From contig NZ_SMGR01000003.1 of NCBI RefSeq assembly GCF_004346865.1, positions 62,001-126,000 on the forward strand: a stretch of 64,000 bases of DNA, given 5' to 3'. Position numbers and translations under genes: made by a program. Below, one piece after another: positions 13,124 through 27,508 of this stretch; positions within the stretch are counted from its first letter, which is position 1; each line of letters starts with the position of its first letter. This DNA is from Shimia isoporae. GTDB lineage: Bacteria > Pseudomonadota > Alphaproteobacteria > Rhodobacterales > Rhodobacteraceae. The notes under the pieces are model-generated. The model did not search any database, was not told the origin of the DNA, and saw nothing but the letters and a program-made list of their open reading frames with translations.

Positions 13124-14625
13124 CCGTCCGCAGACCCCTCGACTTGCGACGCCAAAATTTCACGCACCTTGGCAACAAGCTCACCACGGCCAACTTCAAA
13201 CTGGCTCGGCCGTTCTTTCCATTCCTCCAGAGTGGCGCTTTCCGCAATCTTGGCGCCAAGGATCAAGTCCTTGATCTGCACCACGCCGCGCTCTTTCTCG
13301 TCGCCACCCTCGATGACCGCCACAGGAGAATTGCGCTTGTCCGCGTATTTCAGCTGGTTGCCGAAGTTCTTCGGATTGCCGAGGTAGACTTCGGCGCGAA
13401 TGCCTGCATTGCGCAGCTCCGCCACCATCGCCTGATAGTCTGCCATCCGGTCGCGATCCATCACTGTTACCACAACGGGACCAACGGATGTTCCGCCCAT
13501 TCTGCCTTTTTCGCGCAGCGCAGCCAAAAGGCGATCAACGCCAATCGAAAGACCTGTAGCCGGCACAGACTGGCCTGTAAACCGCTTGACCAGATCATCG
13601 TACCGGCCACCACCAGAGACCGATCCGAACTGCCGTTTCCGGCCCTTTTCGTCGAAGATCTCGAACGTCAGCTCCGCTTCGAACACGGGTCCCGTGTAAT
13701 ACCCAAGCCCCCGCACGATCGAGGGGTCGATCTCGATCCGGTCACTGCCATAACCACCGGCAGCCAAAAGGTCACCGATCTGCTCCAGCTCGGCGATACC
13801 TTCTGCACCGACAGTCGAAGCGCCCACGGCCCCCCGCAGGTTCTCAAACGTCTTCGCGACATCGTCAGCCTTCGATGTCAAAAATGCGATCACCGGTTCG
13901 ATCTGATCGTCGGACAGGCCCACACCGTCGATATAGGCGCCCGAGGCATCCAAACGGCCCTTACCGAGCAGCTCTCGAACGCCGCTCTCGCCAACCTTGT
14001 CGAATTTGTCGATGGTGCGCAGTACGTTGTCCTTGGCCGCTTGGTCCTCGCCAAGCCCCATAACCTCCAGCACGCCGTTCATGACCTTGCGGTTGTTTAC
14101 CCGCACAAGGTAATCGCCACGCGGAATGCCTACGGTCTCCAACGTGTCCGACAGCATCGCGCAAATCTCTGCATCCGCCGCCATGGACGCCGTGCCAACG
14201 GTGTCCGCATCGCACTGGTAAAACTGGCGATATCGTCCCGGTCCCGGCTTTTCATTCCGCCAGACCGGCCCCATCGCGTAGCGGCGATAAGGATTGGGCA
14301 GATCGTTGCGGTGCTGGGCATAGACCCGCGCCAACGGCGCCGTCAGGTCATAACGCAACGCCATCCAGTCGCCCTGATCCTTCTCGTCAAATTCCTGCCA
14401 GGCGAACACACCTTCGTTCGGGCGGTCCACATCCGGAAGGAACTTGCCCAGCGCTTCAACTGTCTCGACCGCGCTGCTCTCAAGGGCTTCAAAACCGTAG
14501 CGATGATAAACCCCGGCGATCTGATGCAGCATTTCGGTGCGCTCAGTCACCTCAACACCGAAATAGTCGCGGAAGCCCTTTGGCGTGATCGCCTTGGGGC
14601 GTGGGGCTTTCTTCTGCTTGGCCAT
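13120..14625 (-). CDS. hisS: histidyl-tRNA synthetase, alphaproteobacterial type
   Basis: Charges tRNA-His. The 501-residue protein carries class II motifs: motif 1 region [13 protein letters not shown], motif 2 in [29 protein letters not shown], the histidine-binding [10 protein letters not shown], and motif 3 [15 protein letters not shown] plus [13 protein letters not shown]. An anticodon-binding domain follows. The motif 2 loop and the length fit the distinct HisRS known from Caulobacter and other alphaproteobacteria, whose tRNA-His lacks the usual extra G at position -1. It is the first gene of the hisS-hisZ-hisG unit. Confidence 0.96.
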
Positions 14626-14729
14626 CGCTATGGTCCCTGTGAATTAATTACGCCTGTGCCTTTACCCAATGGGCGGCAGAGGGGCAAGGAAAGGGTTTGT
14701 AACACGCCTTGGATGCACCAGAAGCGGGG

Positions 14730-15533
14730 CTAGATATCCTTGAAATCTCCTCCGCGGCCCTTGCCAGAGGCAAACCGCGCGGCTCCCGCAGCGCCTTCCG
14801 CTGCGAAGGCCGCAAACGAAGCCCACTCTCGTCGCAATTCACGCGCCAGATTTTCCCCACTCATCCGCCCCGAAAGAAAGTCGGCCCGCATACAAGCCTG
14901 CGGGAACTGGACCAACGATTGAGCCAACTCCAAGGCGCCGGACAAAGCGAACCCTTTCGGACAAACGCGATCGGCCAAGCCCATTTGCGCGGCCTCGGCC
15001 GCATCAATGCCCCGTCCTGTCAGGATCAGGTCGTTGGCACGTCCCTGACCAATGATCCGAGGCAGCCGCACAGTTCCGCCATCAATCAACGGCACGCCCC
15101 ACCTTCGGCAAAACACGCCCAGCGTGGATCCTTCCGCGACAACGCGCATGTCACACCACGCCGCAAGCTCGATACCTCCGGCGACCGCCGGACCTTCAAT
15201 GGCCGCAATTACTGGCTTGGACAGCATCAATCTGGATGGGCCCATAGGCCCGACGATCTGTTCCGATTGTGCGTCTTGCCAGTTTTCGGGGATCTGGACC
15301 TTTGCAATCCAGTCACCGCCGTCTGCCACCGCTGCCGCCTTCAGATCAAAACCTGCACAAAAGTAGCCATCGGCACCGGTCAGGATCGCCACGTCCACGG
15401 CGTCATCCGCGTCAAACGCCTTGAAAGCATCGAACAGAGCCTGCGCCGTTACTGGATCCACCGCATTTCTTGCCTCGGGCCGGTTTATCTCCACAACCCG
15501 CACACGCCCTTCGTCCCGAATGTTCACAGTCAT
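14730..15533 (-). CDS. enoyl-CoA hydratase/isomerase family protein
   Basis: Crotonase-fold protein, 267 residues, probably acting on an acyl-CoA thioester. It shows NRPEARNAVDPVTAQALFDAF, the oxyanion-hole region DGYFCAGFDLKAAA, and KPVIAAIEGPAVAGGIELAAWCDMRV. The second family Glu that activates water in hydratases is not obvious in SRRWGVPLIDGG, where the region reads LGVFCRRWGVPLIDG, so isomerase or another activity is possible. The start at 15533 follows a strong GGGAGGAT ribosome binding site; an upstream ATG at 15551 is less likely. Divergent from slyX. Confidence 0.88.
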   Translation of the reverse strand: MTVNIRDEGRVRVVEINRPEARNAVDPVTAQALFDAFKAFDADDAVDVAILTGADGYFCAGFDLKAAAVADGGDWIAKVQIPENWQDAQSEQIVGPMGPSRLMLSKPVIAAIEGPAVAGGIELAAWCDMRVVAEGSTLGVFCRRWGVPLIDGGTVRLPRIIGQGRANDLILTGRGIDAAEAAQMGLADRVCPKGFALSGALELAQSLVQFPQACMRADFLSGRMSGENLARELRREWASFAAFAAEGAAGAARFASGKGRGGDFKDI

Positions 15534-15635
15534 CACTGATCCTCCCTGCAACGATCACATAAGCCCGGCGCCAACTTCACAAGAAAAACCCCACGTCGCT
15601 TGACGCGCAGCGGCCTGACGACCTATCTGGACACC

Positions 15636-15830
15636 ATGGAAAAACTCGAAGAACAGATCGCCCACCTGACACGCACCGTCGAGGAACTCAGCGACGTTAT
15701 CGCCCGTCAGGACGGCGAAATCGCCTTGCTGACCCGCCGTGTGCAAATGCTGCTGGAACGCGAAGCCAGCCGCGAGTCCGATGGCGGCGGCGGTGTGGTC
15801 ATGGGCGACGAACGCCCGCCGCATTACTGA
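15636..15830 (+). CDS. slyX: SlyX family protein
   Basis: A 64-residue coiled-coil protein. Text MEKLEEQIAHLTRTVEELSDVIARQDGEIALLTRRVQMLLERE is a continuous heptad pattern matching SlyX; the tail ends in RPPHY, the usual SlyX ending. The function is unknown despite wide distribution. The start at 15636 is chosen because family members begin at this point; upstream in-frame sequence does not match. It is convergent with dnaE, 45 bases away. Confidence 0.85.
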   Translation: MEKLEEQIAHLTRTVEELSDVIARQDGEIALLTRRVQMLLEREASRESDGGGGVVMGDERPPHY

Positions 15831-15875
15831 GGCTGCGTCCAAGCTTAAATCGGAAGTGTGGCGCTCTTACCTGCC

Positions 15876-19397: not shown

Positions 19398-19647
19398 GCG
19401 CCCAAGCTATCCCAGCCCATCAGCCGAGGAAACGCCCGTTTCGCCACAAAGCGTCAAGTCACTGAATTAATGACAACAAAACGTCCAATTGATCCGGAAA
19501 GCCCAAAATTATGCACCGCAGTGCTTTTTGTGTTAACTTCTTCGCAATACCGGACAGGTTGCGCGCTTTTTACCAACCCGTTCTCCCCCGCACCGCGGTG
19601 GGAAAAAATTGCTTGCTTTATACATATTTGAACAGGGCGGACCGGAC

Positions 19648-21903
19648 ATGGACGACAGCCAGCATTCCTCGCATATCAAAACTATTCTTGAGAAGTTTCA
19701 CCAGTACGCCAAAGACAACAACGATCTCGATCTGGCCAATTGCAAAGGCACCCAATCGCTTGCCGGATGGTTCATCGGTCCCATGGGAGAGAACGAAGAC
19801 CTGATGACCCGTATGGCGCTCAAGGCGGTCCAAGCCAACAGCAACGCGCGCCGTGAATACGGCGACCAATGGGATGATCCGGTTTATGTCACCGACAGGA
19901 TCAAGGCCGAGAAGGACTACAACGACACAGTTGCCGAGATCGAAAACCAGATGGACAAGATGCTCGGCTATCTGCACGGCTCGATCCCTCTGAGTAGCTA
20001 CCGCAACCAATCTCACATGTATTGGGACTGCACCCTGCCCGGCTTCGCCGGCTACTTCGCCGCGATGCTGTATAATCAGAACAACGTCGCAGCCGAAGCC
20101 TCCCCCGTCACGACCCTGATGGAAATCGAAGTCGGGCGTGATCTGTGCCGAATGCTTGGATATGAAGTGCCCGAAGGCAACGAAAACCCCGACGGCACCC
20201 CGGTTCCGTGGGGACATATCACCTGCGACGGTTCCGTCGCAAACGCCGAAAGCATCTGGGCCGCCCGCAACCTGAAGTATCTTCCGGTCTCCTTGTCACA
20301 GGCGATCAAGGTTGACCCGTCCATGGCCGCGGCCAAGGACCTTGAGGTTCCTCTCCTGCAAGGTGGTTCCGCGAAGTTGACCGAACTCGACAACTGGAGC
20401 CTGCTAAATCTTGGTGTCGACACGGTCATCGGCCTGTCGCCCAAGCTGCAAGCAGACTTTGGCATCTCCTCTGACACCATCCAGGCCGTTCTCGAAAAAT
20501 ACTCGGTCCAAAGCATCGGCCTCGCGGACATGCACAGGACCTATCTGCGCGATGTCTCCGAACTGCCAATCATTCTGGCGCCTTCAACGGCACACTACAG
20601 CTGGCCAAAAGGCGCAGCACTAATCGGACTTGGCGCCAATCAGCTTCACAGGGTCCATGTCGATCTGGATGGCCGCATGGAAATGCAGGCCCTCCGCCAA
20701 AAACTGGATGACTGTCTCGAAGACAGGCGGCCGGTACTTGAAGTTGTCGCCGTCATTGGCACAACCGAGGAAAGCTCCGTCGACCCACTCGATGAAATGG
20801 TCAAAATCCGCGACGAGTACCGCAAAAAAGGCCTCGAGTTCACGTTGCATGTCGATGGGGCGTGGGGAGGCTACTTCGCGTCCATGATCCGCGAAGCCAA
20901 AGGCAAAGTGCTCGAAACCGAACCAGGCGCGACCCAGATTACCCCTGCCATGCACATGAGCAGCTACGTCAAACGCCAATACGAGGCCTTCCCGCACGCC
21001 GACACACAAACGGTAGATCCGCACAAGGCAGGGTTCATCCCCTATCCTGCGGGCTCGCTCTGTTATCGCAACGGGGCCATGCGCGACCTCATCGCCTTCA
21101 CCGCCCCCGTGGTTTATCACGGCGGCGTTGATCCGACCGTCGGAGTCTACGGCATCGAGGGGTCCAAACCTGGGGCCGCTGCCGCAGGGGTCTATCTCTC
21201 GCACGCCGTCATCCGTCCCGACAAATCTGGCTACGGTAAACTGCTCGGCAAGTGCATCTTCAACTCCAAACGCCTCTATGCACAGCTGCTGGCTCTGAAT
21301 GCGGATGAACAGCGTGTACGCGTTACACCGTTCCAACGCCTCCCGGCCGAAAAAGAAGGGAAGTCTCCAGAAGAGATCGAGGCGCAGGCGAACTTCATCC
21401 GCGAGCAATTCGTGCCGCGCCAGAACAATGACCTGCTGGCCTATCTTGCCGAAAACCGCAAAGCCAACGCACTTTTCCACGAACTGGGCTCTGATCAGAA
21501 TATCGTCACCTATTCGCTGAACTTCCGCACAGCGGACGGTTGGAATACCGACGTGGATCTGATGAACGAATTCAACACGCTCATCTATCGCGCCCTGAGT
21601 ATCAGCGAATTTGACGGTGGCGTTGTCCCCTCGGAAGGGATGTTTGTCACGTCCTCCAGCTTTGACGTGCCGACTTATGGTCAAACCTTTGTGGATCATT
21701 TCGGCGGCCGCGCCGGACTGACATCAACCAATGGCAAACCGATCAGCTTCCTTGTTTCAACAACACAGGACCCATGGGTTTCGGCCACGGCAGAAGACAA
21801 CTATTTGCCCAAAGTCATTGCCAAGTTGGAGGAACAAGCGCTTAAGGCCGCCGCCGCTGTGATCCATAAACACGGTTTGACACCGCCGGAGCCCAGCGTA
21901 TGA
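19648..21903 (+). CDS. group II PLP-dependent amino acid decarboxylase (tyrosine decarboxylase-like)
   Basis: Predicted to remove CO2 from an L-amino acid, giving an amine. The 751-residue protein has the group II decarboxylase core: GHITCDGSVANAESIWAARN, HYSWPKGAALIGLG, HVDGAWGG with Asp403 that pairs with the PLP ring, and VDPHKAGFIPY with Lys460 as the PLP Schiff-base residue. The wording is closest to bacterial tyrosine decarboxylases, but it is longer than the roughly 620-residue enzymes known. I chose the ATG at 19648; the frame is open a little upstream. It overlaps the peptidase gene by 4 bases and heads a four-gene operon. Aromatic substrate is an inference. Confidence 0.85.
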   Translation: MDDSQHSSHIKTILEKFHQYAKDNNDLDLANCKGTQSLAGWFIGPMGENEDLMTRMALKAVQANSNARREYGDQWDDPVYVTDRIKAEKDYNDTVAEIENQMDKMLGYLHGSIPLSSYRNQSHMYWDCTLPGFAGYFAAMLYNQNNVAAEASPVTTLMEIEVGRDLCRMLGYEVPEGNENPDGTPVPWGHITCDGSVANAESIWAARNLKYLPVSLSQAIKVDPSMAAAKDLEVPLLQGGSAKLTELDNWSLLNLGVDTVIGLSPKLQADFGISSDTIQAVLEKYSVQSIGLADMHRTYLRDVSELPIILAPSTAHYSWPKGAALIGLGANQLHRVHVDLDGRMEMQALRQKLDDCLEDRRPVLEVVAVIGTTEESSVDPLDEMVKIRDEYRKKGLEFTLHVDGAWGGYFASMIREAKGKVLETEPGATQITPAMHMSSYVKRQYEAFPHADTQTVDPHKAGFIPYPAGSLCYRNGAMRDLIAFTAPVVYHGGVDPTVGVYGIEGSKPGAAAAGVYLSHAVIRPDKSGYGKLLGKCIFNSKRLYAQLLALNADEQRVRVTPFQRLPAEKEGKSPEEIEAQANFIREQFVPRQNNDLLAYLAENRKANALFHELGSDQNIVTYSLNFRTADGWNTDVDLMNEFNTLIYRALSISEFDGGVVPSEGMFVTSSSFDVPTYGQTFVDHFGGRAGLTSTNGKPISFLVSTTQDPWVSATAEDNYLPKVIAKLEEQALKAAAAVIHKHGLTPPEPSV

Positions 21904-23972
21904 CCGACAAGACGACGGAAAAATACGGCGCATGGGCGTCACCTATCGCGCCGCAAGCTTTGGTGGCAGGCGTCAAGAAATTCGAGCAAATTCAGCTAGA
22001 TGACCTTGACATCTATTGGGTTGAGGGACGCCCGGACGAAGGCGGACGGTCGGTGGTAGTCCGCGCTGCGCAGGGTGAGATCGTCAGCGATGTTACCCCC
22101 CTCGGATACAACGCTCGCAGCCTCGTCAATTCGTACGGCGGTGGCGCCATGTCGGTCCAGGCCGGAACCGTTTGGTTCACCAATTTTGCCTCCAAGGATT
22201 TCCCTGACACCCACGATCAACGCATCTACGCGCTGCGCGACGGTCAGTTTCCGCAACCCGTCACCCCCAGACAGGACGCCCGTTTCTCAGACATGGTGCC
22301 AGACCACGATCGTGGCTTGATATATGCAGTGCAGGAACGCGGAGACACCAAACTGCACGGGCAGGCTCAACAGACTCTGGTCGCGCTTGACATGAACGGC
22401 AAAGCGCTCCCGCTGACAATCGCGGAAGGCAGCGACTTTTACGCTGCGCCCGCACTTTCGCCAGATGGCCGCCAGTTGGCTTGGATCACATGGGACTATC
22501 CTTCCATGCCTTGGGATGGCACACGTCTTCAGCTCGCCGATATTGATGAAGCCGGCAACGCCAGAAATATCCGCACAATCGGCGGCGCTCCTGCCAAACA
22601 TGTCGACCCCGCCCTCAATCCGGTGCTGCAAAACGCCTTGCGGTATTCCGATGAAGCCATAGCTGAACCACGTTGGGGACCGGACGGAACGCTATATTGC
22701 GTGTCCGACAGATTGGAAATTGACGGCACCCGATGGTCAAACCTGCATCGCGTTGACGGCGAGAGCCTCACCGCCATCACCCGTGTCGCCGGTGATTTCA
22801 CCAGCCCGCTCTGGCGATTGGGTGTATCGTCCTATGGATTCATCTCAGATCAGAAAGCGCTCTGCGCCTTCACCAGTGACGGTGTCTGGTCGCTGGCAGT
22901 CGTCGATCTGACCAGCGGAAACATGACCTCGGTGGATCTGCCTTATACGGCGATCTCACAGCTCAAGGTCGGCGACGGGTTCGCCGCTTTCGTTGGCGGC
23001 CGGTTTGATGGCCCCTCGGCCATCGTGCGTCTGGACACCGGCGACTTCAGCTTCCACGAGCTTCAAAGCGCCAGCCCCGACATGGACGCCAAGGTAAGAG
23101 CCTGTCTGGTGGCGCCTGAAACCATCAGTTTCGACGTAGAAAACCCCGACGGTTCCACCGCGCGCTCGCACGCATTTTATCACGCCCCCAGCAATCCGGG
23201 CTTCGAAGGTCCAGCCGACGAACGCCCCCCGCTGGTCATCGTAATTCACGGCGGACCATCCGCATCGGCCAGCGCCGCAGCCTCGCTGGACATAGCGTTT
23301 TTCACGTCGCGAGGCTTTGCAGTTCTGGACACCAACTATCGCGGCAGCACCGGCTTCGGGCGCGCCTACCGCCAAAGCCTCTACGGAGAGTGGGGTGTCG
23401 TCGATGTGGCCGATTGTGTTGCAGGCGCCAACTACCTCGTTGCCCAAGACAAGGTGGATCGCTACAGGATCGTGTCCCGCGGAGGATCCGCAGGCGGCTA
23501 TACAACTCTTGCGCTGGCCACATTCGCCAACCTGCTCAGCGCCGGTGCCAGCTACTATGGCATTTCCGATTTGCAAATGATTGCTCAAGACACCGACAAG
23601 CTCGAGGCGTACTACGCACCCTTGCTCGTTGGACCTTGGCCCGAAGCGCAAAAAATCTACAAAGCCCGATCGCCGCTTTTCCATGCCGACGAGATTTCTT
23701 GCCCTCTCATCATCTTTCAGGGGCTGGATGATCCGGTCGTGCCACCGCCGCAAGCCCACGTGCTGATCGACACGATGGTCAAACGCAAGCTGCCTGTCGC
23801 CTGGGAGTTCTACAAAGGCGAAGGCCACGGCTTTAGGCAAAGCGCACATATCACGGGATCGCTCGAGGAAGAGCTTTCGTTTTACGGATCCGTTCTAGGG
23901 TTCACACCAGCCGGGCATCTCAAGCAGCCCGACATCAAGAACTGGCCTTTGGGGGACGAAGGCAACGATTAG
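21900..23972 (+). CDS. S9 family prolyl oligopeptidase-like peptidase
   Basis: Serine peptidase of the acylaminoacyl/dipeptidyl peptidase type, 690 residues. An N-terminal beta-propeller (about residues 30-400, with repeated blades such as PALSPDGRQLAWITWD) is followed by an alpha/beta hydrolase domain. The catalytic triad is complete: Ser530 in SRGGSAGGY, Asp611 in GLDDPVVPP, His643 in GEGHGF. There is no signal peptide, so it should act in the cytoplasm on short peptides. Its start overlaps the decarboxylase stop (ATGA), indicating coupled translation. It could supply amino acids to that enzyme, which is inference. Confidence 0.9.
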   Translation: MTDKTTEKYGAWASPIAPQALVAGVKKFEQIQLDDLDIYWVEGRPDEGGRSVVVRAAQGEIVSDVTPLGYNARSLVNSYGGGAMSVQAGTVWFTNFASKDFPDTHDQRIYALRDGQFPQPVTPRQDARFSDMVPDHDRGLIYAVQERGDTKLHGQAQQTLVALDMNGKALPLTIAEGSDFYAAPALSPDGRQLAWITWDYPSMPWDGTRLQLADIDEAGNARNIRTIGGAPAKHVDPALNPVLQNALRYSDEAIAEPRWGPDGTLYCVSDRLEIDGTRWSNLHRVDGESLTAITRVAGDFTSPLWRLGVSSYGFISDQKALCAFTSDGVWSLAVVDLTSGNMTSVDLPYTAISQLKVGDGFAAFVGGRFDGPSAIVRLDTGDFSFHELQSASPDMDAKVRACLVAPETISFDVENPDGSTARSHAFYHAPSNPGFEGPADERPPLVIVIHGGPSASASAAASLDIAFFTSRGFAVLDTNYRGSTGFGRAYRQSLYGEWGVVDVADCVAGANYLVAQDKVDRYRIVSRGGSAGGYTTLALATFANLLSAGASYYGISDLQMIAQDTDKLEAYYAPLLVGPWPEAQKIYKARSPLFHADEISCPLIIFQGLDDPVVPPPQAHVLIDTMVKRKLPVAWEFYKGEGHGFRQSAHITGSLEEELSFYGSVLGFTPAGHLKQPDIKNWPLGDEGND

Positions 23973-24002
23973 GAAACTGCAAAATCATCGGGAGGGAAGG
24001 CC

Positions 24003-25160
24003 ATGTTGAAAGTAGCGACAGGTTCAAGCGAAGAAACGGACAGCGTCGAAGCTTTTGAAGAAGCATATGAAATCGCAATGGAGGACCTCGGAGGCATGCA
24101 ACCCAAGGCGGCGCTTGTCTTCGCCGGCATTGATCTCGACCTTTCGGTGGTCGCAGACGAGCTGCGAAAACAGCAGCCCGACATCGTGATTGCCGGATGC
24201 ACCACAGACGGCGAGGTCGCAACGCCTGAAGGGTTCCTCGAGGACAGCCTCGTCATCACATTGTTTGCGTCCGATGACGTTTCCATTTCAGTCGGCATGG
24301 GCGCCAACGCCTCGTCCGCGCCGGAACAGGCGACTGCTGACGCGGTGGCTATGGCAAAAGCAGCGACCAGCGGAACGCCCGCACTTTGTATTGCAATGCC
24401 CGAAGGCATCGGCACCAACATCAACAGCATCGTCGAAGGGCTTCGCGATGCGCTCGGGCAGGATTTTCCGATTGTCGGTGGTGCCGCAGGTGACCAACTC
24501 CGCTTTCAGGGAACGCACCAGCTTTGTAATGATCAAATGGTTTCCGACGCTGTGGTGGTCATGTTGCTCTCAGGCGACATCACTGTCTCCTGCGGTGTAT
24601 CAACGGGCTATACGCCGCTCGGATCGGTTCACAAAGTCACCAAGTCCGAAGGATCGGTTATCCAGGAAATCGACGGCCGTCCCGCGGTCGATCTCTACAA
24701 GGACTATGTGCAAGCGCAGTCGATCTTTTTCCCTCTCGCAGTGCATGTGCCCGGACGCGAGGGTTTCCTGCTGAGTTCACCGCAGCACTTTGACGAAGAG
24801 ACCGGCGCAATTCACTTTGTAAATCCCGTTGCCGCCGACCGGGAGGTTCAGATCGCAACCGCGTCTCGCGACGAAATCGTCAGCGCCTCCAGAGCGGCGG
24901 TGCAACAGGCCTTCGACAGTTTTCCGGATGACCTTGTGCCAGACGCCGCGCTGGTGTTCTCCTGCGCCGGAAGACGGGCTGCTCTGGGCACGCGCACGGG
25001 TGAGGAATACGAAAGCTTCGAGGACATCATCGGAGGCGCGTTCCCCACGGCTGGGTTTTACACCTATGGCGAAATCAGCCCCGTTGGAAAGTCGGGAAAA
25101 TCCCTGCCCCACACGAATGCATTCGTCGCAGTCTTGCTGGGATCCCCTTCCGCAAGCTAA
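24003..25160 (+). CDS. FIST domain sensory protein
   Basis: A 385-residue protein made of FIST_N (about residues 25-220, with ALVFAGIDLDLSVVADELRK and IAGCTTDGEV) and FIST_C (about residues 225-375, with QEIDGRPAVDLYKDYV and ending in GAFPTAGFYTYGEISPVGKS...NAFVAVLL). FIST domains are predicted sensors of small molecules, possibly amino acids, found next to or fused with kinases, cyclases and chemoreceptors. It has no output domain of its own. GGGAGG lies just upstream of the ATG. It follows the peptidase by 30 bases and precedes the cyclase by 12, so the cyclase is its likely output partner. Confidence 0.9.
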   Translation: MLKVATGSSEETDSVEAFEEAYEIAMEDLGGMQPKAALVFAGIDLDLSVVADELRKQQPDIVIAGCTTDGEVATPEGFLEDSLVITLFASDDVSISVGMGANASSAPEQATADAVAMAKAATSGTPALCIAMPEGIGTNINSIVEGLRDALGQDFPIVGGAAGDQLRFQGTHQLCNDQMVSDAVVVMLLSGDITVSCGVSTGYTPLGSVHKVTKSEGSVIQEIDGRPAVDLYKDYVQAQSIFFPLAVHVPGREGFLLSSPQHFDEETGAIHFVNPVAADREVQIATASRDEIVSASRAAVQQAFDSFPDDLVPDAALVFSCAGRRAALGTRTGEEYESFEDIIGGAFPTAGFYTYGEISPVGKSGKSLPHTNAFVAVLLGSPSAS

Positions 25161-25172
25161 GCTGGGGTCCGG

Positions 25173-26006
25173 ATGGATCACTCAGACCGGACACGCCGCG
25201 CCGGTGACCCCGAACGCCGGTTGCGAAGACTTGAGAAACGCCTGAACAAATCCGAGATGCGCAGGGCCGAGCTCGAACATCTCATGGATGGCGGTCAGGC
25301 GTTCCAGCGTCGTGTCATTCAGGAAGTCGAAGACGCCAAGGCCGAAATCGAACGCCTCTATGAGTCTCTGTCGCTGGAGCAGGCCCGCACAAACCAGCTT
25401 CTGCGTTCCATTATGCCCGAGGCCGTAGCCGAAGAACTCAAGGAGCGCGGACGTGTCCGCCCCCGCCGAACAAAATCCGCGACCGTAATGTTTGCTGACT
25501 TTGTCAACTTCACATTACACACCGAAAACATGGATCCCGTCGCCTTGGTGCGCACTCTTGACCGCTATTACTCCGCTTTTGACGCGATCGCCGCGTCCCA
25601 CGGGGTGGAGAAGGTCAAGACTATTGGCGATGCCTATATGTGCGTTGCGGGCAATCTGGCCGACGTCCAATCGTCGGAACACGCGGCACAGATGTGCCGC
25701 GCGGCAGTGGACATCATGAAAGCCGTCGCCGACTTGCGCAGCGAGGAAACCAACTGGTCAATCCGGATCGGTCTACATTCAGGCCCGATCTCCAGCGGCG
25801 TCGTCGGCTCTGAAAGGCTCAGCTATGACATCTGGGGAGATACGGTGAACACGGCGGCGCGCGTCGCAGATGCCACAGGCATCAACGAGATCTTTCTCTC
25901 CGAAAGCACACACGCGCTTCTGTCAGATGATCAAGGCACCACCTACCACGGTGAGGTCGAGGCCAAGGGCAAAGGCCTCGTGCGCCTCTATCAACTCATC
26001 ACCTGA
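25173..26006 (+). CDS. soluble class III adenylate cyclase with coiled-coil N-terminus
   Basis: A 277-residue cyclase making cyclic nucleotide. Residues 15-77 are a charged coiled coil; residues 100-277 are the catalytic domain. Both metal-binding aspartates are present (Asp109 in MFADFVNFT, Asp153 in TIGDAYM), as are the transition-state pair Asn226 and Arg230 in DTVNTAAR. The purine-selecting residues are Lys149 (EKVKTIGD) and Asp219 (SYDIWGD), the pattern of adenylate rather than guanylate cyclases. There is no sensor or membrane domain, so the upstream FIST protein probably controls it. Last gene of the four-gene operon. Confidence 0.9.
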   Translation: MDHSDRTRRAGDPERRLRRLEKRLNKSEMRRAELEHLMDGGQAFQRRVIQEVEDAKAEIERLYESLSLEQARTNQLLRSIMPEAVAEELKERGRVRPRRTKSATVMFADFVNFTLHTENMDPVALVRTLDRYYSAFDAIAASHGVEKVKTIGDAYMCVAGNLADVQSSEHAAQMCRAAVDIMKAVADLRSEETNWSIRIGLHSGPISSGVVGSERLSYDIWGDTVNTAARVADATGINEIFLSESTHALLSDDQGTTYHGEVEAKGKGLVRLYQLIT

Positions 26007-26011
26007 CAGCA

Positions 26012-27226
26012 CTAGTCCATGTAGATGGGGAACACAGGCTCCAGAAGGCTGCCCGGCTTGAACGCCTGCTCAATTGAAGGCGCCACATACGGGAAATTCG
26101 GGGAAAGACGTTGTGTACTGACGTGCGGCAGGTTCACCCCGTCGGCCGCCACTAGGAACGGGTTCACATCCTGAATGATCCAGTAGATAGCATCTTCGCG
26201 CAGGTTTCGCCCGTTGGGGTATCCCGGTGCACTGTTCGGGCTCCAATGGATCACATCCGGCAAATAAGAATCGACCATACCCGCGATATCAGCCGCGCTG
26301 ACTTCAAGCTGTTCGAAGCGATAGCTGAGCTGAGTGCCATAGTTTTTGCGGTCGTCCTTCGGCGCCGTCGCGTTATAGGCATCGTTGAAATCGCCCACGG
26401 TCTTATACTTTGCGCGGTTGCGCGGCAGATAGTATTCGGGGTTATAACCGACAGGCGGATCAACAAAGAAAATGCCCTGCGTGCCAGCGCGCCCCATCCG
26501 GTCAACACCCTTGCCACTCTCGTCCGCAACGACAACCCAATACCGCAAATCCGTTTCCGCCAACTCCGGGACCTCCAGCACCACGAGTGTCATATCGGTA
26601 CGCCCAAACGTCAGTTCAGCCGAGCCTTTCGCCGGCAACCTGTCGCCGCCCGCCAAAGCTTGCTTGATAGCCATGGCCGTCGGTGCATCGACTGTCAGAA
26701 AATCAAAAAAGAACGGGTCGCGGCGCGGTCCGACAAACAGCAACTCACCTTTGTCACCTTTGACGATCTCCAACTCACGATTGAGTTTGTTGCTCAGCCC
26801 TCCGCCCAGCACATCTCCGTTCCACATATTTGAAACCGCATCGGCGCCCGTGGCCCGACGCAACTCCAGTTTCTGTTGCTGGTTCTCGTTGGGAATATCT
26901 GTCGCGCGGACCTTGTAAGCGACATCCGCAACAAGATCGCCATCCAGATCGAGTTTGTAGATGTAGGTCAGCGACGCATCCAGCTTGATGTCGGCGGGCG
27001 CGTTGGTACCTTCCGCCCCGCTGCCTGACAGCGGGTTGACCGTAAAGGCCATCGTCAGCCCACCAGTCTGGGGCCCCTTGAAGATAAAAATATCGCCAAT
27101 ATCCGCTTCTGGATGCGCCTGAGTATAGGGGGAATCCTTATGATCGGATGCCAGCGCAGGCAGCACAGCCATCCCTCCAAATCCACCAAGAACAATCGCA
27201 ACTTTAGAAATCAGTTTCAGTATCAT
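26012..27226 (-). CDS. DUF4331 family exported protein
   Basis: A 404-residue exported protein of unknown function. The signal peptide (residues 1-33, ending LPALA) is followed by the family's typical opening SDHKDSPYTQAHPEADIGDIFIFKGP. The rest looks like beta-rich sequence with TGLTMAFTVNPLSG and PDVIHWSPNSAPGYPNGRNLREDAIYW near the end. The start at 27226 is supported by GGGAG eleven bases upstream; an earlier ATG at 27247 lacks one. It converges on the cyclase gene with only 5 bases between stops and no visible terminator. Confidence 0.85.
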   Translation of the reverse strand: MILKLISKVAIVLGGFGGMAVLPALASDHKDSPYTQAHPEADIGDIFIFKGPQTGGLTMAFTVNPLSGSGAEGTNAPADIKLDASLTYIYKLDLDGDLVADVAYKVRATDIPNENQQQKLELRRATGADAVSNMWNGDVLGGGLSNKLNRELEIVKGDKGELLFVGPRRDPFFFDFLTVDAPTAMAIKQALAGGDRLPAKGSAELTFGRTDMTLVVLEVPELAETDLRYWVVVADESGKGVDRMGRAGTQGIFFVDPPVGYNPEYYLPRNRAKYKTVGDFNDAYNATAPKDDRKNYGTQLSYRFEQLEVSAADIAGMVDSYLPDVIHWSPNSAPGYPNGRNLREDAIYWIIQDVNPFLVAADGVNLPHVSTQRLSPNFPYVAPSIEQAFKPGSLLEPVFPIYMD

Positions 27227-27508
27227 TTCGTTCACTCCCAAGAACAAAAGCCGGTCCGGAACTCACTTAACCTAAGGGCACCCTATCAGACGAACACCCG
27301 CTTGAGGATTCAATTCGCATCCGCCTGAATTGCAGCGCCTGCCCTCGCCAGTGGCACATCCGTCTCAAGGCACAAACGGATTCGATAGAAGCAACCGGTC
27401 CCGCCGCAACCATCGGTCTGACAGCCTCCCCCCGACTCTTGGAGAGAGCATTGCCCGATGCCAGCTTCACGCACAAAAATTACGCACAAACTCACCGCTA
27501 AACTCTGC

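Follow-up and report, generated by a model that had tools for sequence, protein, structure and literature searches.

Results

Five genes lie between dnaE and an ABC gene in Shimia isoporae

In a 64,000-nucleotide stretch of the Shimia isoporae genome (hereafter the window; contig NZ_SMGR01000003.1 of assembly GCF_004346865.1, positions 62,001 to 126,000 of the forward strand), four same-strand genes encode a group II decarboxylase, an S9 peptidase, a FIST sensor protein and a class III adenylate cyclase, and a convergent fifth gene encodes a DUF4331 protein. The features analysed are as follows.

19648–21903, plus strand: group II pyridoxal phosphate (PLP) decarboxylase, 751 residues, an open reading frame (ORF) with an ATG start (Pyridoxal_deC, 3.8e-15)
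21900–23972, plus strand: S9 peptidase (prolyl oligopeptidase family), 690 residues, an optional member (Peptidase_S9, 5.2e-43)
24003–25160, plus strand: stand-alone FIST N plus FIST C sensor protein, 385 residues (FIST, 4.1e-45; FIST_C, 1.2e-29)
25173–26006, plus strand: class III adenylate cyclase, 277 residues (Guanylate_cyc, 9.6e-46; no membrane domain matched)
25185–25370, plus strand: N-terminal coiled-coil adaptor of the cyclase, residues 5–66 as aligned (profile match, 30.9 bits)
26012–27247, minus strand: DUF4331 protein, convergent with the cyclase (ORF and domain match)
19454–27469, no strand: stretch of ~8.0 kb that two congeners lack at the site between dnaE and the ABC gene (alignment to loci L193 and L194)

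The decarboxylase and S9 genes overlap by 4 bases, and the gaps that follow are 30 bases (S9 to FIST) and 12 bases (FIST to cyclase), in agreement with the spacing given in the initial annotation, which described the four same-strand genes as an operon. An alternative decarboxylase start, an in-frame TTG at 19609, is possible. The same annotation saw no terminator inside the operon; three terminator-like sites are present there on the plus strand (22970, 23284 and 24267), but the terminator-like count for the region does not exceed that of shuffled sequence (10 vs. 9.2 ± 3.0). The DUF4331 ORF ends 5 bases past the cyclase end, on the opposite strand; its N-terminus is secreted-looking by eye, and there is an in-frame ATG at about 27226.

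The genes recur together in relatives and are missing from congeners

A FIST alignment of six sequences and two peptide patterns were used to scan 84,980 species genomes. The scan, the yield of which is a lower bound, gave 391 confirmed FIST loci, and the results below concern the best 80 of these 391: 18 Rhodobacteraceae records and 62 non-Rhodobacteraceae loci, with organism families as stated in the records. The FIST proteins of the 18 Rhodobacteraceae records are 58–69% identical to the window FIST. FIST, cyclase and DUF4331 are present in 18 of 18, and the decarboxylase is present in all 17 relatives with enough upstream sequence (L062 begins inside S9, and its decarboxylase is out of view). 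The DUF4331 gene adjoins the cyclase gene in 15 relatives and lies elsewhere within the stretch in the other three (L067, L076 and L077). The S9 gene occupies the same position as in the window in six of the 18 and is absent from 12, which rules out S9 as a core member. The four-gene set is therefore real, its order recurring in 18 other Rhodobacteraceae records, but as first described it was incomplete, DUF4331 having been missed, and it counted a dispensable peptidase among its essential members. Because S9 lies outside the core, the conversion of peptides to an amino acid, proposed earlier as the input to the system, is not supported as an essential step. Two further proteins lie near cassettes, a phage tail collar domain protein (L076:14250–15122) and a 1449-residue PKD/Ig-like protein (L077:10086–14432), and homologues of these are found beside 8 of the 18 (one of each was domain-scanned).

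The dnaE loci of 11 of 24 congeners were compared with the window. Two of them (L193 and L194; genomes G256 and G268) align to the window through position 19453, in front of dnaE; 198 bases further on in one and 185 in the other, the alignment picks up again at the ABC gene, from window positions 27475 and 27470, respectively. The ~8 kb that the window carries between the dnaE side and the ABC gene contains the five cassette genes and no other recognised gene. A different gene adjoins dnaE in eight of the other nine congeners (L192 and L196–L202), and in the ninth (L195) another ORF lies next to dnaE, with the ABC gene ~1.1 kb away. The gene that adjoins dnaE in these eight, where it sits upstream, lies downstream of dnaE in the window (14465–15834); the surroundings of dnaE have therefore been rearranged.

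The whole cassette is rare, being found in 1 of 25 congeneric genomes and, judged by the decarboxylase, in 3 of 394 family genomes. Among the 25 congeneric genomes, the decarboxylase is found only in the window's own genome, five others giving weak partial matches (32–35%), and the window-type FIST likewise only there, other matches being 24–35% identical, like the own genome's second FIST; the best other FIST match in 248 family genomes is 29%. That second FIST (L002, C1:2319587) belongs to another clade and lies beside a LuxR-type response regulator, as named by eye. The other two family genomes with the cassette, G704 and G744, have the sequences of L070 and L068, respectively. Five Aliiroseovarius crassostreae plasmids carry the cassette, judged by decarboxylase match (one inspected), as does pSC52_1, in which FIST is annotated in two pieces and the sequence is nearly that of L069.

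Decarboxylase, FIST and cyclase thus form a unit, as the initial annotation proposed, kept in 17 of 17 informative relatives and lacking from a near-empty site in two congeners. The genes co-occur in relatives, and chance adjacency, the alternative that had been tied to rare co-occurrence, is ruled out by this recurrence together with the near-empty site. We conclude, from comparison of sequences, that the five genes are one heritable, discrete cassette, with the peptidase its least constant part, because they recur in 18 relatives and because the dnaE site is near-empty in congeners.

Family membership and catalytic residues are conserved

Domain matches bear out all four of the original family calls. 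The window FIST scores 154.4 bits for FIST N (cut-off 23.2) and 103.5 bits for FIST_C (cut-off 28.5), the decarboxylase scores 56 bits for Pyridoxal_deC (cut-off 27), placing it among group II PLP decarboxylases, and the cyclase catalytic domain scores 156.1 bits (cut-off 21.9), placing it among class III adenylate cyclases. With the window included in each count, the PLP Lys, His and Asp positions are identical in 18 of 18 decarboxylase copies, the S9 catalytic triad positions in 7 of 7 copies, and six catalytic positions of the cyclase in 19 of 19 copies; we take the last to be the metal, adenine-specifying base (K and D) and transition-state residues. Cyclase residues 44–89 weakly resemble HNOBA (22.6 bits vs. 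a cut-off of 23.4), and the pSC52_1 cyclase, at 33.5 bits, exceeds that value; no HNOB (H-NOX) match was found in the window cyclase, which is not of the soluble guanylate cyclase type.

The closest solved relative of the decarboxylase is 6ebn, a noncanonical aromatic amino acid decarboxylase. The window enzyme shares with this protein, PcncAAAD, and with bacterial tyrosine decarboxylases similarity over most of its length and the PLP-site residues (6ebn; PMC13062060, available part). It differs from PcncAAAD in being shorter than that protein's 1013 residues and in lacking the C-terminal appendage described there, and from tyrosine decarboxylases in scoring 292.9 bits for TIGR03811, for which the cut-off is 905.3.

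The AlphaFold model of the window FIST has a mean predicted local distance difference test (pLDDT) score of 91.5; its best solved fold match is FBXO22 (E 1e-11, TM ~0.5, 13% identity), and, more weakly, it also resembles Toblerone-fold cyclic amide hydrolases. All 34 FISTs compared within the window's clade share His370. The NCBIfam NosP model (NF041558) matches residues 21–357 at 78.1 bits, far under its curated cut-off of 450, and by this family score the window FIST is not a NosP. The histidine-kinase partner characteristic of NosP is likewise missing, the partner being a cyclase in the window and in 18 of 18 relatives.

FIST partners with different outputs open with a common coiled coil

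In the 62 non-Rhodobacteraceae loci, the gene after FIST opens with a coiled coil with the consensus LEKxxRILxKKLERSExDRxxLE. Partners were extracted from 58 of the 62; L109, in which the next gene is a second FIST, was set aside, and an adaptor profile was built from the remaining 57, without Rhodobacteraceae. The motif is also visible on inspection in L082 (cut by a contig end), L101, L103 and L109 (after the second FIST); L108 ends at FIST. The profile detects 18 of 18 cassette cyclases, at 17.1–47.6 bits, with the window cyclase at 30.9 bits; taken as a 75-residue fragment, the window adaptor scores 35.9 bits, as compared to 17.8 bits for the best of 2000 heptad-preserving shuffles. Five partners outside the training set (L042, L043, L045, L046 and L047) score 34.8–54.7 bits; L044 is not an independent test, having the same sequence as L137, a training row. 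When the 9,387 ORFs of all loci were then compared, partners of this FIST clade scored at least 17.1 bits and everything else at most 10.5 bits. An adaptor-scoring partner ORF is found in 78 of 80 FIST loci, the two others being cut off by a contig end. The adaptor is absent from the 1.5 kb flanks of other-clade FIST loci, none of the 64 scanned partners has a Pfam match to the segment at E ≤ 1e-5, and a search of the window genome returned the cyclase, which matches by construction as a query row, and then nothing better than E 0.71.

The proteins that carry this coiled coil differ in output. The 64 partners comprise 52 with HATPase_c, five with SpoIIE (a count that includes one sequence twice, L044 being L137), four with a cyclase domain (window included) and three with a receiver. 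No decarboxylase match lies within the up to 8 kb compared on each side in the 62 non-Rhodobacteraceae loci, which have the same FIST clade with other outputs. These 62 loci, L079–L140, hold a mostly cyanobacterial FIST clade paired with proteins that have this coiled coil at their start; in the non-cyanobacterial L085, L093, L115, L116, L129, L137 and L140 the coiled coil stands on kinases, SpoIIE phosphatases or cyclases (outputs named partly by eye).

The closest FISTs in 398 phylum genomes, 37–40% identical to the window FIST, include a natural FIST-cyclase fusion (L042; genome G284), two FIST-SpoIIE fusions (L044 and L046; genomes G389 and G280), a FIST with a stand-alone SpoIIE protein encoded next (L045) and two with a hybrid kinase in that position (L047 and L043; single outputs named by eye). 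The adaptor sits between FIST and output in the fusions only, and elsewhere opens the partner protein. A structural model of the fusion has a confident FIST (residues 1–388), then a loose linker, then one helix (residues 409–469, moderate confidence) at the adaptor. Within the cassette, divergence is most in step for FIST and cyclase (rho 0.90 over 171 pairs, which are not independent); divergence of the decarboxylase follows that of the other members with rho 0.57–0.80. We conclude that FIST-cyclase coupling is independently supported, at the level of sequence, by a natural fusion and by a common partner coiled coil on swapped outputs, and that the coiled coil is likely the means by which FIST gates the cyclase.

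The decarboxylase is paired with cyclases through two unrelated sensors

At E ≤ 1e-30 the decarboxylase is found in 10 of 394 family genomes, and 10 of 10 copies lie beside a class III cyclase. Three of these are in FIST cassettes (own genome, G704 and G744); seven are in sister clusters (L170–L176), in which the decarboxylase is followed by an unrelated His-rich protein and then by a class III cyclase that differs in type from the FIST-cassette enzyme and has N-terminal Cys pairs. The His-rich protein has an invariant HxH, an HM and further His, gives no Pfam or NCBIfam match (tested in L152), and occurs in exactly the same 7 of 394 genomes as the sister decarboxylases (six were query rows and one, G071, was not). 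In six of the seven sister clusters the 17 kb stretch includes a CRP-like gene, a few hundred bases to ~6 kb away, as in L173, where His-rich protein, cyclase and CRP all accompany the decarboxylase; L175 has no CRP-like gene but has a divergent S9. Across the phylum, the decarboxylase is found at E ≤ 1e-30 in 6 of 398 genomes besides the own genome, at 32–37%. Near the sister clusters there are also P47-family proteins (two in L174, 1450–4776, by Pfam; homologues in L170, L171 and L172) and a sub-threshold PEP-CTERM match.

Cyclic-nucleotide-binding neighbours and a promoter dyad occur in relatives

A CRP-like gene precedes the decarboxylase gene in 9 of 18 relatives, and three more have another cyclic-nucleotide-binding protein beyond DUF4331, for a total of 12 of 18 (called by domain scan for L067, L068 and L148, and by homology for the rest). 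In L064, L068, L069 and L166 the protein after DUF4331 combines a CBU_0592-type membrane part with a cyclic-nucleotide-binding domain (scanned in L068). A GTG-N8-CAC dyad lies within 200 bases of the decarboxylase start in 9 of 9 CRP-linked promoters and also in L064 and L069, giving 11 of 17 relatives; a repeat record, L177 (= L070), adds one. For the textbook CRP consensus, TGTGA-N6-TCACA, the best matches, at −117 in the window and in L067 and L078, have 2 mismatches of 10, a comparison with no control. A cAMP (cyclic AMP) receptor inside the window is not supported: the four cyclic-nucleotide-binding matches of the own genome all lie outside the window. Two of them weakly resemble FIST-cassette CRPs (22–42% over partial stretches).

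Discussion

We propose, with a probability of about 0.6, that the cassette is a patchy, mobile unit that subjects an aromatic-type amino acid decarboxylase to control by its own cAMP signal, by way of the FIST-cyclase pair. According to this proposal, FIST would bind a small ligand, ligand-bound FIST would dock on the N-terminal coiled coil of the cyclase (homodimeric by family), and docking would raise or lower cAMP production. The target of cAMP in relatives would be the product of the adjacent CRP-family gene, a regulator for which the conserved dyad before the decarboxylase gene is a possible binding site; in the window strain, the cAMP receptor would have to be encoded elsewhere. Physical docking, a direction of control, cAMP as the product and CRP action on the decarboxylase are steps that we infer.

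Several observations weigh against this proposal. The CRP neighbour and the dyad are both absent from the window and likewise from L061, L063, L065, L066 and L072, L068 is without the dyad, and none of the five sister-cluster promoters examined has it; the overall count (12 of 24 promoters, with the window contributing 0 of 1, vs. 1.2 expected) is for a pattern picked after viewing, counted on related sequences and compared with mononucleotide shuffles only. The 18 relative records are not independent, L070 and L071 and also L073 and L074 being close pairs. As regards the adaptor, the L076 cassette cyclase, at 17.1 bits, scores lower than the top shuffled version of the window adaptor (17.8 bits), and the reverse profile, built from Rhodobacteraceae only, recovers 47 of the 57 other partners at E ≤ 0.01 but not the remaining 10. 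The fusion model does not say whether FIST touches the helix, and it is unreliable in its cyclase part. The own genome (4.2 Mb, 9 contigs) has ten class III cyclase matches, that of the cassette included, and the cAMP made by the cassette may therefore not be a private signal. Finally, a Rhizobium plasmid decarboxylase (L167, 44%) has no FIST, His-rich protein or cyclase at E ≤ 1e-12 within the fetched stretch.

The identity of the ligand divides the proposal into two versions, which we consider about equally likely and, each on its own, unlikely: a substrate or product of the decarboxylase, or nitric oxide (NO), heme or another redox signal. A pathway metabolite would fit because of the linkage to the decarboxylase, which has a sensor-cyclase pair beside it in each of the 10 family genomes where it occurs. 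In such a loop, the one put forward in the initial annotation, FIST would sense the amino acid or amine of the decarboxylase, with the peptidase, if present, feeding it, and would report it as cAMP. The recurrence of S9 in sister cluster L175 speaks for this loop, and the absence of S9 from 12 of 18 cassettes speaks against it, as does the service of the same FIST clade to other outputs with no decarboxylase nearby in the 62 non-Rhodobacteraceae loci; in the available parts of the papers cited here, an amino acid or amine is not among the reported FIST ligands. Those that are reported are NO and heme (NosP and CdpA). A NosP-like heme or NO sensor would make the cassette a nitrosative or redox response, in which NO or heme leads through cAMP to decarboxylase expression and the substrate is not sensed. 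The NosP match over most of the FIST is in keeping with this, and the His-rich sister sensor and the N-terminal Cys pairs of its cyclase would suit metal or redox chemistry; yet the match, at 78 bits against 450, is far too low for a NosP, the partner is a cyclase, and the adaptor is confined to FIST loci of this clade when 1.5 kb flanks are compared.

An altogether different account is that the neighbourhood is a selfish operon, its genes travelling together for reasons of transfer with no common signal. Patchy presence, plasmid copies and the near-empty site speak for it. We consider it improbable in view of the two unrelated sensors that accompany the decarboxylase and its neighbouring cyclases, the specificity of the adaptor and the in-step divergence of FIST and cyclase.

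The proposed FIST-cyclase circuit resembles the NosP-NosK and NosP-NahK systems, in which a stand-alone FIST is encoded beside the output enzyme that it controls and NosK itself lacks any recognised sensor domain (PMC12570481, PMC8846402, PMC12997753, as far as the available parts of these papers go). FIST proteins as separate sensors for kinases are thus already known (PMC12570481, PMC8846402). In NosP systems, however, the output is a histidine kinase feeding cyclic di-GMP proteins, whereas in the cassette it is a class III cyclase, and the cassette differs further in its low NosP score, its distinct partner coiled coil and its tie to a decarboxylase. The adaptor also recalls the S-helix, a helical connector that precedes kinases, cyclases and PP2C phosphatases (PMC1592074), but it stands at the start of the partner protein, has a separate FIST as its counterpart and follows a consensus of its own; FIST is unmentioned in the main text of that paper. 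No earlier description of a FIST-cyclase-decarboxylase combination, or of the partner coiled coil of this FIST clade, was found among the matches listed in the open-access literature, and no paper on DUF4331 was found there.

In soluble guanylate cyclase, helices connect an H-NOX sensor module to the class III cyclase that it drives. The cassette likewise joins a sensor to a class III cyclase, with the weak HNOBA resemblance at residues 44–89, but no H-NOX domain was matched, a FIST stands in its place, and the base-specifying residues are of the adenylate type in 19 of 19 copies.

More broadly, and at somewhat less than even odds, the cassette may be a self-contained mobile circuit that supplies a decarboxylase with its own sensor, cyclase and, often, CRP; at least two sensor-cyclase pairs would have been fitted to one decarboxylase family, and FISTs of this clade would be general plug-ins, with a single interchangeable coiled-coil socket giving them control of kinases, phosphatases and cyclases. 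The signal mechanism of FIST proteins is described as little known (PMC8846402, available part). If the proposal is correct, FIST proteins would gain a defined docking segment, separable and movable between outputs, and cAMP would join the list of FIST outputs. The sister clusters, with their second, unrelated sensor, make the question of why the decarboxylase needs cAMP a testable one, and the cassette itself would be a compact natural circuit linking an amine-forming enzyme to a second messenger.

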